From Lachnospiraceae bacterium P6A3 (GTDB lineage Bacteria > Bacillota > Clostridia > Lachnospirales > Lachnospiraceae): a stretch of DNA of 64,000 nucleotides. Where the stretch lies: positions 124,001 to 188,000 of the forward strand of contig JNKP01000001.1 in assembly GCA_000702085.1 (NCBI GenBank), in the 5' to 3' direction. The notes beneath the pieces were generated by a model. It was given only the letters and a program-made list of their open reading frames with translations. It did no database searches and was not told the DNA's origin. A program made the position numbers and the translations under genes. Shown here in pieces: positions 2,775 through 12,873 of this stretch (position 1 is the first letter of the stretch; every line of letters starts with the position of its first letter).

Positions 2775-5177
2775 TTAATTCCACTCTTCTACATCAACAA
2801 GTTCACCGTTTTCGTATACAAATGCATCTGAGGTATAAGTGTTTCCGTATACATCGGTTACTTCATAAACGATGTGGATCTTATCGTTGTTTAAGTTAAT
2901 GGAATTGTAATCAAGGAAAAGTTCCGATGCATAGAAAGGATCGTATGCCTCTACATATTTATCCTTATCAAGGCAATACCAGATGATCTGAATCTCATCC
3001 GTATCCTCAAGCTCGTAATAATAATCCGCATCATCATCCATGATGGTGTATCCGGTGATCATTCCCATGGGATTATCCTGATCATAGAATACCATCAGGT
3101 AGCATTCTTCTCCGTTGATCTTAACGGGGATAGCACCGTACTGGTTCCATTCACCGGTATCTTCGTCTTCATAGCAGTCATATACGATATAACATGCAAC
3201 TCTGTCGGTAAGATATGTCCAGTTGCTGGGAGTATCCGCAACAAGGTCTCCGTCATCATCGAAGTTATTGAACTGATCCTGGCCGAGGAAATAAAGATTA
3301 CCTTCATCGTCCTCAAGATACATCTGAGCCATAACGGTAAGCCAGTCGATATCACTTGTGAACATATAGTAGTGATCGATACCGTCGGCATATGTTGCGT
3401 GTGAGCAGTCAAGATGATACTCTCCCGCCTCGGCAACGGTAATTCCGCCGCTTACATATGTGTGAATGATATCTTCATTAAACCAGTTACCGGCATAGTC
3501 CTCTGCATCACTGACGCCGTACCAGTAAGCAAGTGAAAGTGATACATATTCGTCAAAGTAATCTACGATGGTTGAATTGTATTCCAGAGCCTGGAAAGTC
3601 TTACGGCCTTCTCCGTAATACTCAACATAGTCGTAAGGGAAATATGCGGTAATTCCGTGACCGAATGCAAAATCACTTTCGGTGTAATCAACTGCGTTAA
3701 CTACGGAGTTGATGAGCTGGGTTGAACCGTAGCTCTCGTATTTATTGGCAAGAGTAACAAGGTCAACCGAGTCGGTTCCCATATATACACCGCAGTTTTC
3801 TCTGGCTGTGATGATATCGGAATAGTTTCTGGATTCAAGAGCCGTCTTCATCTCATCGATATATGCGGTATATGCATTATATACAGCCTCGATATGGCTG
3901 AGTGAGATAACGGACATGGAAGCGACCATATCCTTGGATTTACAGAAATTCATATAATCGGATACGATCATTTCTCTGTAATCACCCTGAGATACGGGCT
4001 TCTCGGCAAGGAGATCGAGCCAGTTGGTATAAGCAAGTCCGTTACCGTTTACATAGCTCTCGGCACCGATCATATAATCGGCAACATCCTTAAGTGACAT
4101 TCCGACTTCAAGAGTACACATATTACATGCATCAAATACAATACTGTCGAAGTGAACTCCGGTCTTGGCAATGCCGTGTCCCAGCTGATAGTCATAGATC
4201 ATATCATCGGGGAAATTTTCATCGATACCGTATCCGATGGGAACTCCGCCGCCGTGATCCCAGAGGATCAAAACATAATCATCAGCGGGATATTCTTCTG
4301 CAGCAAACGAAATGAAATCGGTAAGAGTATCGATGTCTGCCATTGAGATAACACCGAGATCTTCAAGCTCATTGAACTTTCCGTCTTTATAACAGAATCT
4401 CTGTACTTCGCCGTCCTTACAGAAATTATTGTCCCAATTTGAGCATCCGCCGGTCTGAATGATGATATTGGTATCATCGGTAAGTGTTGCTCTGCTGATC
4501 TCTTCGAGATCGTCGGTAGCAAGACCTGCTTCGCTCTCAAGGTTGGAACCGATGATATAGAGCATGATGGTCTGCTTAGCCTGAGTATCTTCGACAACGG
4601 GATCGTCATCGTCATCATCGTCGTCATCGTCATCATCGGGTTCTTCCACAACAGGTTCGGGATCGGGAGTCGAACCTATAAGTCCGAACTGCTTAGCTGC
4701 AAAGAATCCGCCGCCTCCGAGAAGTGCAAGGATAAGAAGGATTATAACTGCAATAAGACCGCCCTTCTTCTTTTTCTTGGGAGGCTGATCTGCAGGCATC
4801 TGAGGCTGAGCACCCATATATACGTTCTGCTGAGGCATAGGGCCCGGCTGTGCGCCCATATACACGCTCTGCTGAGGCATAGGCTGGGGCTGAACGGGTG
4901 CCTGAGGCTGTACAGGAGCTTGGGGCTGAGGTTCAGGCTGAGGCTGAACGGGAGCCTGGGGCTGTACAGGAGCTTGGGACTGAGGTTCAGGCTGAGGCTG
5001 AACGGGAGCCTGGGGCTGTACAGGAGCTTGGGACTGAGGTTCAGACTGAGACTGTACGGGAGCCTGGGGCTGTACAGGAGGCTGCGCAGGTGCCTGAGGC
5101 TGATCAAGTGGTGATCCGCAATTCATACAGAATTTCATTCCGTCTTCCATTTTGGATCCGCAGATTTTACAAAACAT
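2775..5177 (-). CDS. Membrane-anchored clostripain-family (C11) cysteine peptidase with N-terminal zinc ribbon
   Basis: Order of parts in the 800 residues: a zinc ribbon (CKIC at 3-6, CMNC at 17-20), a Pro/Gln/Ala/Val-rich linker with 18-residue repeats (about 26-130), a KKKKK stop-transfer flank and one membrane helix (139-162), a run of 12 aspartates (181-192), then a peptidase domain like clostripain. The catalytic His is H308 in LWDHGGG and the likely nucleophile is C351 in FDACNMC. The topology implies a cytoplasmic ribbon and an extracellular peptidase. There is no signal peptide apart from the internal helix. Known family members cleave after Arg or Lys; the substrate here is unknown. 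It starts 4 bases after the phosphohexomutase stop, so it is translated from the same message. Confidence 0.82.
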   Translation of the reverse strand: MFCKICGSKMEDGMKFCMNCGSPLDQPQAPAQPPVQPQAPVQSQSEPQSQAPVQPQAPVQPQPEPQSQAPVQPQAPVQPQPEPQPQAPVQPQAPVQPQPMPQQSVYMGAQPGPMPQQNVYMGAQPQMPADQPPKKKKKGGLIAVIILLILALLGGGGFFAAKQFGLIGSTPDPEPVVEEPDDDDDDDDDDDDPVVEDTQAKQTIMLYIIGSNLESEAGLATDDLEEISRATLTDDTNIIIQTGGCSNWDNNFCKDGEVQRFCYKDGKFNELEDLGVISMADIDTLTDFISFAAEEYPADDYVLILWDHGGGVPIGYGIDENFPDDMIYDYQLGHGIAKTGVHFDSIVFDACNMCTLEVGMSLKDVADYMIGAESYVNGNGLAYTNWLDLLAEKPVSQGDYREMIVSDYMNFCKSKDMVASMSVISLSHIEAVYNAYTAYIDEMKTALESRNYSDIITARENCGVYMGTDSVDLVTLANKYESYGSTQLINSVVNAVDYTESDFAFGHGITAYFPYDYVEYYGEGRKTFQALEYNSTIVDYFDEYVSLSLAYWYGVSDAEDYAGNWFNEDIIHTYVSGGITVAEAGEYHLDCSHATYADGIDHYYMFTSDIDWLTVMAQMYLEDDEGNLYFLGQDQFNNFDDDGDLVADTPSNWTYLTDRVACYIVYDCYEDEDTGEWNQYGAIPVKINGEECYLMVFYDQDNPMGMITGYTIMDDDADYYYELEDTDEIQIIWYCLDKDKYVEAYDPFYASELFLDYNSINLNNDKIHIVYEVTDVYGNTYTSDAFVYENGELVDVEEWN
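4900..5085 (-). repeat. 54-bp tandem repeat coding the Q/P linker
   Basis: The ten-base marker TACAGGAGCT recurs at 4911, 4965 and 5019, and a TACAGGAG copy begins at 5073, giving an exact 54-bp period (18 codons). The copies are nearly identical at the DNA level, so they are recent duplications. The period is a multiple of three, so copy number can change without breaking the frame of the peptidase gene. Confidence 0.85.
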
Positions 5178-11167: not shown

Positions 11168-11941
11168 TCAGTTTAAATCGAAATCAGCTCTTATTATCCC
11201 GGTAAACACAGGTACATTCTCCGCAAAGGAAAAATGGCCGGTGCCGGGAATAACCGCAAGGCCTGCGGAAGGCATCAATTTTTCCATCAGTTTGCCGTCA
11301 CTTAAAGGAGTGGCTTCGTCCTTGTCACCCCAGATAAGCAATGTGTCGTATTTATTTTTTTCAAAGAGATGTGTGAGATCTTCGTTGACCGCTTTGACAA
11401 GGCATCCCTTCATGATGGGAGTTGCATTGCGGTAATCTTCCGAACCCTGTGTAGACTTCCAGAGTTCGATAAGTTCCGAAAACATCATATACACAGGTTT
11501 AAAGTTCAGGAATTTTTTTAGGATCTTGTATCTGAAAATTCTAACCTTTTGTTTAAAGCTTCTCTTAGGCATGACACCTGCGGAATCGATAAGCACGATT
11601 CTTTCAATCTCAAAAGGGAGGTTGTCCCGCGCTGCCATTTTGATGATCATTCTTCCGCCGTAGGAATGCCCGATAAGAACTGCCTTTTTTATATCAAGAG
11701 CCTGCATAAGCTTGAGAAAGAAGTCAGTAAACTGATCTACAGTCCAGCTTTCGGGAGGCTCCTGGCTTGCGCCGAATCCCGGAAGATCAAACTGAAGAAC
11801 ACGGTACTTAGGCTGAAGTGCTTTTGCCACAACATCGTAAAGCGGATAAGAGGTGCCCCACCCCTGCAGAATTACAGCGGTTTCTTCACCTTCTCCGTTG
11901 AATTTATATGCGATTTTAAGTCCGTCAATCGTAATGTCCAT
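11168..11941 (-). CDS. Alpha/beta hydrolase
   Basis: This 257-residue protein has the standard alpha/beta hydrolase motifs: oxyanion region LQGWGTSYPLYD, nucleophile elbow GHSYGGR, acidic residue in IWGDKDEATP and catalytic His in GTGHFSF. There is no signal peptide. The substrate is unknown; it could be an esterase, a lipase or a C-C bond hydrolase. It is the first gene of the eight-gene surface operon. The ATG has no clear ribosome site; instead TGG-TAAAAT at 11952-11960 resembles an extended -10 so close to the ATG that the transcript would have almost no leader. Otherwise it is read from upstream through the 73-bp array. Confidence 0.78.
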   Translation of the reverse strand: MDITIDGLKIAYKFNGEGEETAVILQGWGTSYPLYDVVAKALQPKYRVLQFDLPGFGASQEPPESWTVDQFTDFFLKLMQALDIKKAVLIGHSYGGRMIIKMAARDNLPFEIERIVLIDSAGVMPKRSFKQKVRIFRYKILKKFLNFKPVYMMFSELIELWKSTQGSEDYRNATPIMKGCLVKAVNEDLTHLFEKNKYDTLLIWGDKDEATPLSDGKLMEKLMPSAGLAVIPGTGHFSFAENVPVFTGIIRADFDLN

Positions 11942-12008: not shown

Positions 12009-12628
12009 GGCTAATAAATCGGCGGCGTTGCGTGGATTATTAGCCTTTGTGGGAGATTTGGGGCTTTCTGAGAGGATGGCGGGCTAATAATTCCGCTGAT
12101 TTGCGTGATTTTTTAGCCTTTTAAAGCGGAAATTGGCTTCTGAGGATGCTGAGCGGCTGATAAATGGACATATTTGCTGAAATTATTAGCCTGCTTCAAT
12201 GATTTTAAGCTTCTGAGAATGGGAATAGGCTAATATAATGCCTTATTTGCCTGAATTATTAGCTTGTTGCGGTGGGATTGAGCTTCCGGGGATGGGTGAT
12301 GGCTATAAATCGGAGTATTAAGCCGGAAATTATAGCCTTTTTAGGCTTAATTTGACTTCTGAGGAGATGGGCGGGCTATAAATTTGAAACTTAAGTGGGA
12401 AATTATAGCCGCTTTAGGCTGAATTTGACTTCTGAGGAGATAGACGGGCTATAAAATTGAGACTTAAGTGGGAAATTATAGCCTTTGAAGTGTGAATAGG
12501 CTTCTGAGGAAACAAAAAGGCTATAATCCCGGCCATTTAGCCGGAAATTATAGCCTTTGAAGTTGAATTTCGATTCTGAGGGTGGAATGCGGGCTATAAA
12601 ATGGAACTAATAGCCGAAAATTATAGCC
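12009..12628. repeat. Nine-unit tandem array, 73-bp period, with inverted-repeat unit ends
   Basis: Nine 37-bp units start at 12009, 12082, 12155, 12228, 12301, 12374, 12447, 12519 and 12592, that is every 73 bp with one step of 72. Each begins GGCTATAA or GGCTAATAA and ends with its reverse complement TTATAGCC or TTATTAGCC. The 35-37 bp between units is also related, with a CTTCTGAGGA core in most copies. The four units nearest the hydrolase carry the AAT/ATT form in both arms, the other five the AT form in both arms, so the arms have changed together. Unit interiors tend toward TTAAG(T/C)(G/C)GGAAA. The array fills the whole gap between the hydrolase gene and the Cys-rich gene and ends on that gene's stop codon. 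A 73-bp period excludes a repeated protein. Confidence 0.9.
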
Positions 12629-12873
12629 TACCACTTGGATATGGGGCAATGGGTGGATTTGGAGGCTGCTCTGATCTCGACATAGCAGCCGCATTTCTGA
12701 CAAGTGCCGGCAAGAAGGCTCCCGCAGTCCAGACAGACATTCAAACGCTCTTCATAGAGTTCATCAGGGGCTTTCTCCGAGTCCGGAAGCATAGCCCTGG
12801 TCTTCTTCACATATTCATATATATCTGCCTTCTCCGCAATATCACGGATCAGGCAAAGCTTACATTCGCCCAT
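12628..12873 (-). CDS. Small cysteine-rich protein (DUF6171-like)
   Basis: The 81-residue product has CKLC at 4-7, a helical middle with Tyr and acidic residues, then CLDCGSL, GTCQKCGCYVEIRAA and a terminal HCPISKW. The order of Cys pairs, the CGCYVE.RA segment and the final CP...W are as I recall them for the DUF6171 family of short Clostridia proteins; this assignment is from memory. It probably binds zinc. No function is known. The stop codon TAG (12630-12628) shares its last base with the end of the tandem array, and two direct repeats lie upstream of the ATG. The ribosome site is weak (GGAAATAA). Confidence 0.75.
   Translation of the reverse strand: MGECKLCLIRDIAEKADIYEYVKKTRAMLPDSEKAPDELYEERLNVCLDCGSLLAGTCQKCGCYVEIRAASKSTHCPISKW

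Follow-up and report, generated by a model that had tools for sequence, protein, structure and literature searches.

The array in the window and its flanking genes

The window, the whole stretch of 64,000 nucleotides that was analysed (G000:C1:124001-188000), belongs to the 2.98-Mb genome of Lachnospiraceae bacterium P6A3, here called G000, and holds a tandem array of nine short units flanked by an alpha/beta hydrolase gene and a DUF6171 gene. Each unit is bounded by two inverted arms, which are given below as left/right, with the right arm as its reverse complement.

11168..11941, minus strand: alpha/beta hydrolase gene, flanking the array
12009..12628, no strand assigned: whole array, nine 37-bp units with a period of 73 bp
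12009..12045: unit 1, arms GGCTAATA/GGCTAATA
12082..12118: unit 2, arms GGCTAATA/GGCTAAAA, with a T.T mismatch
12155..12191: unit 3, arms GGCTGATA/GGCTAATA
12228..12264: unit 4, arms GGCTAATA/AGCTAATA
12301..12337: unit 5, GGCTATAA on both sides; the point at which the arm type switches
12374..12410: unit 6, GGCTATAA on both sides
12447..12483: unit 7, GGCTATAA on both sides
12519..12555: unit 8, GGCTATAA on both sides
12592..12628: unit 9, GGCTATAA on both sides; its final base lies within the DUF6171 stop codon
12628..12873, minus strand: DUF6171 gene, flanking the array

The earlier note on this DNA had given the coordinates of the array exactly, and its description holds in detail: seven of the spacings are 73 bp and one is 72 bp, both arms change type together (GGCTAATA-type in units 1-4, GGCTATAA in units 5-9), the units at 12155 and 12228 hold G.T wobbles on the plus strand (units 3 and 4), and the linkers share a CTTCTGAGGA-like core. 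The T.T mismatch of unit 2 originates in its right arm, which reads TTTTAGCC. TRF called a period of 73 for 12318-12629, and the pattern GGCTATAAN{15,24}TTATAGCC has 47 exact matches in the G000 genome and none for the reversed-pattern control; thus, the window array is not a product of chance. At the orthologous site in G015, array L087 (arms GGCTGTAA) has the same end point relative to the DUF6171 gene, and the distance from the hydrolase gene to the array is 68 bp both in the window and in G017 (L119). Elsewhere in the window, TRF reported an 18/54-bp tandem repeat at 4881-5103. Within the window, Rfam 15 gave no match at gathering score and a tRNA search returned none.

A family of arrays with fixed geometry and genome-specific arms

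As the earlier note had envisaged, a covariance model was run on related genomes. Built from two array units and used on G000 and on genomes of the same genus and the same family, it found arrays at no fewer than 16 places in G000 (150 of 753 candidates scored), in at least 5 of 31 genomes of the genus, and in at least 5 of 397 genomes of the family including G000, the other four of which (G103, G119, G185 and G386) all belong to other genera; the family search scored 9 candidates per genome, and such totals from genome searches are lower bounds. A three-unit GGCT pattern recovered a further view of the family, with 27 stretches in 12 genomes of the GTDB collection of 84,980 species. These 12 genomes are named Lachnospiraceae, Pseudobutyrivibrio, Eubacterium or Clostridiales, and four of the titles name rumen, omasum or duodenum. 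The genus, family and GTDB searches combined give 17 array genomes. RGIG8306 has two 73-bp units (L116, 65-174) bounded by GACTGCRC, an arm very unlike the others, and GGCT-based searches therefore undercount.

The geometry was measured on a sample of 48 arrays with 261 units from nine genomes and five genera. Unit length is 37 bp (some 38) and spacing 72-74 bp throughout, with steps of 146 bp marking places where one unit went uncalled. The main arms are GGCTATAA and GGCTAATA in G000, GGCTATAA and GGCTGTAA/GACTGTAA in G015, GGCTAAGA in G103 and G119, TACTGTAA or GGCTGTAA/GACTGTAA in G185, and GGCTATAA/AGCTATAA in G386. The geometry, a 37-bp two-armed unit repeated every 73 bp, is fixed, and the arm sequence varies by genome. 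Two half-site types coexist, often as separate blocks of one array, and a unit at the junction of two blocks may combine both arm types (L025, L027); left and right arms of two types were also observed in L023 (5170-5425), L101, L105, L106 and L110.

In sister species many arrays occupy orthologous sites. At the pnp locus, inspected by eye, the array of G000, G014 and G015 comes after a sequence resembling a terminator; G017 retains a single unit, and none was seen in G026. Leaving aside two of the 48 arrays at contig edges, 38 of 46 lie between codirectional genes, 8 between convergent genes and none between divergent genes.

Pairing of the arms

In the earlier note, the array was read either as a multi-hairpin RNA, with a hint that its orientation is antisense relative to the neighbouring genes, or as a repeated protein platform. 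Two results are in agreement with the RNA: in a 41-row alignment 90.8% of arm cells pair, so that the expected arm covariation is present in the aggregate, and each strand of the window array folds more stably than 20 shuffled versions. Individual genomes tell against it. The arms are not fully pairable in any of the units shown of RUG694 (L101, 6/6), RUI398 (L105, 3/3; L110, 3/3) and RUG13380 (G431; L106, 3/3), nor in 4/6 (L023), 3/6 (L024) and 3/6 (L079) units of G014, and the arm drift in homologous arrays that the note had set against its own reading was thus found in several genomes. Wobble mismatches, from which the note had drawn its hint of an antisense RNA, fall on both strands: of the 35 arrays that contain them, 10 show them on the plus strand alone, 13 on the minus strand alone and 12 on both. 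Additionally, it is the genes' strand of the window array that folds better (z of -9.75 against shuffles, and -4.71 for the opposite strand), the phasing outside the arms is of the 10.4-bp B-DNA type (see below), and the window is devoid of Rfam matches. Covariation in the aggregate is expected from two copies of a single half-site. The arrays are not a stem RNA; a hairpin array was rejected on the non-complementary arms and the wobbles on both strands, and we consider the antisense RNA very improbable. The protein platform, on the other hand, fits the fixed geometry, the genome-specific arms and the phased A/T outside the arms.

Helical phasing and curvature

That 73 bp is close to seven helical turns, as the earlier note had remarked, proved central. 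With the arms masked, A/T content is periodic at about 10.4 bp (10.43) over the 73-bp repeat, and harmonic 7 of 73 bp accounts for 42% of the A/T power, a value matched in 0/2000 permutations and 0/1000 per-array rotations. The A/T phase is common to 47 arrays (R=0.915), nine of nine genomes agreeing, and harmonics 5 and 9 also have some common phase (R of 0.54 and 0.69). When the phase was predicted for fresh arrays from the GTDB search, 19/19 lay no more than 60 degrees from the expected value, or 18/18 without L123, which overlaps the discovery array L084; eight of the 27 stretches had been dropped as already used, and L104 and L108 are near-copies. In these validation arrays the A/T amplitude is 5.86, against 0.25 in flanking DNA in the same register. 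Curvature predicted with a wedge model exceeds that of the flanks in 48/48 arrays. Information extends beyond the arms, in units (6.3 bits vs 1.7-2.1 in per-array permuted controls) and in linkers (7.0 vs 2.4-2.8 bits), and in the G000 clade a CTGAGG core takes mirrored, nearly fixed positions around two dyads. We read the phased A/T as a wrapping or bending surface with seven turns per repeat.

Such a surface could serve a general wrapping protein, DNA gyrase or a nucleoid protein, with the arrays acting as topological or transcriptional insulators in the manner of E. coli BIME-2 and the nuclease gene described below being a mere neighbour. The gyrase motif consists of a 36-bp centre bordered by flanks whose GC content varies with a period of 10.75 bp, and BIME-2 elements are enriched in gyrase sites (PMC6379681); this geometry and enrichment, the phasing, the predicted curvature and the absence of arrays from divergent gene pairs (0/46) are all consistent with an insulator. 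However, arms that differ by genome would not be expected if a conserved enzyme bound them, and the arrays go with a nuclease gene and their period with the nuclease tree, so we hold this explanation to be quite unlikely.

A putative nuclease gene beside comEC

When the genes near 75 arrays were clustered, comEC was recovered in several genera. It is present in 15 of the 17 array genomes (absent from the G014 and G026 assemblies) and adjoins an array in 11 of these 15 (in G000 at L013:5050-9400; comEC loci L139-L152). No array lies beside it in G103, RUG13380 and G41, and RUG14112, whose contig ends in comEC, is counted among the 15 and not among the 11. For the control gene aroC an array was found in 0/17, with narrower flanks (about 1.4 kb, vs 4 kb for comEC).

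A conserved gene of about 271 codons accompanies comEC and the array in nine genomes (G000, G015, G119, G185, G386, UBA3626, RUG694, RUG13451 and RGIG507), and G017 has a copy cut by the contig end, which brings the total to 10 of the 11 comEC-array genomes. In RUI398 (G430; L139) the array lies between comEC and holA without the nuclease gene. The G000 copy is placed as follows.

G000 C1:589602-590414: putative ~271-aa nuclease gene, adjacent to comEC and to an array; the window array is about 450 kb away

The adjacency to comEC invites a reading of the arrays as a DNA-uptake signal, a dialect of the DUS/USS kind tied to ComEC. The arms are dialect-like, and the genes for RecD2, PolA, PolC, Ogg and HolA, picked by eye, are among the neighbours. 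Outside the arrays, however, the arms are not enriched (4 vs 2.9 expected and 3 vs 1.8, in 197 kb of G000), and comEC adjoins the arrays because the nuclease gene lies there in 10 of the 11 genomes. An uptake dialect was accordingly rejected and has, in our estimate, scarcely any probability left.

The ~271-aa protein has no accepted match in Pfam, PDB sequences or PHROG. Among PADLOC models at E<=1, the C-terminal part of PDC-S68 matches 9/9 members (best 5e-29), HEAT_CxxC_PDDEXK 6/9 (best 5.9e-7) and PD_DExK 2/9 (best 0.004). Proteins of the PD-(D/E)XK superfamily carry E...PD...(E/D)xK-like motifs on an alpha-beta-beta-beta-alpha-beta core. The invariant residues of the ~271-aa family include SKSE, HPDF and WEH, and a low-confidence AlphaFold model (pLDDT 52.6, 3 sequences) has the elements H163-174, E196-201, E206-211, H218-234 and E243-248; a Foldseek search with this model gave nothing at E<=0.001. 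From the PADLOC matches, the protein is read as carrying a putative C-terminal nuclease domain of the PD-(D/E)XK type. Mean identity is 0.44 in the N-terminal part and 0.71 in the nuclease part, and the former is the more variable and probably helical. Between G000 and G015 the nuclease is 78% identical, the sixth-lowest value among 40 rows in which ComEC appears twice, which suggests a gene that evolves fast without being exceptional.

Arrays and their periods follow the putative nuclease lineage

A profile search of the 397 family genomes placed 11 genomes at 366 bits or more, followed by a gap down to 240 bits, and relatives at E<=1e-12 occur in 125 of the 397. All five of the array genomes recognised in the family (a lower bound) have a nuclease of at least 366 bits, as do 3/5 array genomes of the genus and 0/26 others. 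Across the 17 array genomes the count is 11, one copy (G017) being cut by contig ends. G433 has distant relatives only, and no nuclease relative was found in G014, G026, G426 and G430, whose assemblies are incomplete or unrated. G431 retains, beside comEC, a broken ~271-aa gene with several stops (L255/L260) plus a distant relative, and it has kept the 73-bp array L106. A viral origin of the arrays is not supported: a two-unit GGCT pattern had no match in viral contigs, and a nuclease-alignment scan of 100 pattern stretches detected no nuclease relative.

The linkage extends beyond the GGCT-type arrays. With no arm assumed, a tandem array was found in 52 of 77 nuclease loci and in 1 of 48 control loci (aroC 1/17, pnp 0/25, Y1_Tnp 0/6), and 25/77 nuclease loci had none at the threshold. 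Four of 81 nuclease loci had been dropped for runs of N (L171, L208, L222, L236); of 30 pnp controls five had been left out, three because they carry arrays and two for N. The nuclease loci include near-identical genomes (RUG13451, RGIG507) and share descent, so they are not all independent. The sole control-locus array, near aroC in G103 (L168, about 711-1144), is a 62-bp palindromic array with arms AAAAGACCTCC/GGAGGTCTTTT; it lies away from the nuclease relatives examined and may be a dispersed array of another member.

At the 52 loci, periods of 53-54 bp (8), 62-64 (18), 73-75 (20), 83-86 (4), 108 (1) and 115 (1) were recorded. In the range of 8-14 bp, a common unit of 10.50 bp fits the periods best (R=0.879). 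With each of the 13 distinct values taken once R is 0.780, which 5/2000 random sets of 14 integers equalled. The periods thus group near 5, 6, 7 and 8 helical turns. Inverted arms of at least 7 bp occur in 32/49 consensus units vs 13/196 shuffled ones. Among the 24 with arms of at least 8 bp, the span is 35-39 bp in 13, and these come from arrays whose periods range from 5 to 8 turns; since this span is kept across 5-8 turns, it seems to be mainly the linker that changes. In the 46 other arrays, the helical A/T harmonic has a mean share of 0.074 vs 0.031 and takes first rank in 9 vs 1.4 expected. Individual 6-turn arrays show this phasing weakly, the helical harmonic ranking first in 2/18.

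Period follows descent as well. On a nuclease tree of 61 rows, the period class changes 16 times vs 27.8 when shuffled (0/200). The 8-turn class alone is not clustered, and close relatives can lie about one turn apart (L199 73 bp and L204 84 bp; L234 83 bp and L235 74 bp). G000 itself carries a second, more distant relative at C5:140953 (L218, G000:C5:139200-143500) with its own 62-bp array, whose arms, TTGATGCTT/AAGCATCAA, were not seen elsewhere in the G000 DNA examined.

Arrays beside a nuclease gene could alternatively belong to defence, with the arrays storing or regulating the nuclease, as a sponge or an operator, until it is released against invading DNA. The resemblance of the C-terminal domain to the candidate phage-defence proteins PDC-S68 and PDC-S69 is in agreement with this, as is the position of the array relative to the nuclease gene, upstream in 41 loci and downstream in 11 of the 52. 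Yet a long relative in G429 (C15, L259), a 1229-aa open frame of PDC-S68-like length with the same nuclease-like domain, has no tandem array beside it; many distant intergenic arrays are needless for autoregulation; and G431, where the subfamily is represented only by a broken copy, retains array L106. A defence role is in our judgement unlikely.

A proposed two-part system

The reading that we favour, with moderate confidence, is that nuclease and phased arrays form a two-part system, of which the window array is one DNA platform. We conclude that the arrays are putative platforms for the nuclease protein, because the arms change while the 37-bp span and the helical phase stay constant, and because arrays and period go with the nuclease lineage. 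The family, its geometry and phasing, the genetic linkage and the tracking of nuclease descent by the period are direct observations; binding, cleavage, amplification and benefit to the host are what we infer from them.

The first part would be the ~271-aa protein with its C-terminal PD-(D/E)XK-type domain, and the second the tandem arrays, which adjoin the nuclease gene and also occupy other intergenic positions. A unit would offer two inverted half-sites of 8-9 bp with an outer span of 37 bp, and the linker length would set the repeat at seven helical turns, so that all sites come to lie on one face of curved, phased DNA that the protein can wrap. The protein may bind the arms, perhaps through its variable N-terminal part, and arms and protein may have co-evolved. 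Nicking or cutting, followed by repair, could have amplified and re-copied the arrays, by analogy with the RAYT transposases that are thought to keep REP/REPIN families. Such amplification and maintenance is ranked first among the possible roles, above a defence store or operator and above chromosome organisation.

More broadly, it appears rather probable that this is a new class of system, widespread in the family, in which every PD-(D/E)XK-like protein has a two-armed site of its own. The site would be repeated in tandem at about 5-8 turns next to the gene and, in certain lineages, at numerous chromosomal positions, and the protein would build a wrapped fibre on the arrays and write or spread them. 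Dispersal away from the nuclease gene was seen only for the GGCT-type family. The array-free nuclease loci (25/77), the array genomes in which an intact copy was not found, the weak phasing of 6-turn arrays, the scatter of the 8-turn class on the tree and the unexceptional divergence of the nuclease between G000 and G015 count against the proposed system. So does G000, where two arm types coexist with one nuclease of the subfamily; two paralogous proteins do not account for them, there being only one nuclease of at least 366 bits and the array of the second relative having other arms.

Comparison with known systems

In the literature searched we found no description of such a nuclease-array system, nor of a whole-turn grouping of periods that follows the descent of the neighbouring nuclease while the arms change freely, and the earlier note's remark that no element like the window array has been described agrees with this. 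Several known systems share individual traits. Like CRISPR, the arrays combine a repeat of about 37 bp, an interval of 36 bp and terminal inverted repeats. In contrast to unique spacers, however, the intervals are often near-copies within an array, and unlike near-identical CRISPR repeats, the unit interiors vary between arrays; on these two grounds a CRISPR remnant was rejected. No cas gene was recognised in about 59 neighbouring proteins scanned. With DUS/USS the arrays share a genome-specific dialect, inverted pairs and AT tracts in helical phase, as in the Haemophilus USS, but DUS/USS cores occur genome-wide, whereas the arms are confined to arrays in the DNA examined. The gyrase motif and BIME-2 sites have in common with the arrays helically phased AT/GC content suited to wrapping and an intergenic location, and differ from them in that the arrays have genome-specific arms, a strict tandem period and linkage to a nuclease gene. 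PDC-S68 and HEAT_CxxC_PDDEXK proteins have the same C-terminal PD-(D/E)XK-like domain, at about 1200 model positions in PDC-S68 compared with ~271 aa here, and the one long relative found, of 1229 aa, is without an array.

The closest parallel is that of REP/BIME/REPIN elements with RAYT (TnpA-REP), which likewise have inverted repeats outside genes, arrays with regular spacing, sequences particular to each genome and an enzyme gene next to its repeats. Here, 46/46 arrays are intergenic and spaced, and 52/77 enzyme loci have arrays. The differences are nonetheless clear. The RAYT enzyme is of the HUH/Y1 type and the present one PD-(D/E)XK-like; the two-arm sites are short where REP forms compact stem-loops; and the period lies near whole helical turns, unlike in REP. 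By the rule given in PMC3733652, a REP is a palindrome of 20-40 bp with a GTAG/CGTC-type tag, and arms such as GGCTATAA, GGCTAAGA and TACTGTAA carry neither GTAG nor CGTC. The Y1 (HUH) transposase PF01797 occurs in 5/9 array genomes and in 7/15 other genomes, and is absent from the array genomes G014, G017, G026 and G386 (the last 99% complete). Membership in RAYT/REP was rejected on the missing tag and these four genomes. If the proposed system is real, it would be a non-HUH counterpart of REP/RAYT and would provide naturally occurring DNA platforms whose site sequence and helical spacing have changed independently of each other, together with a directly testable protein-DNA recognition code in many gut and rumen bacteria.
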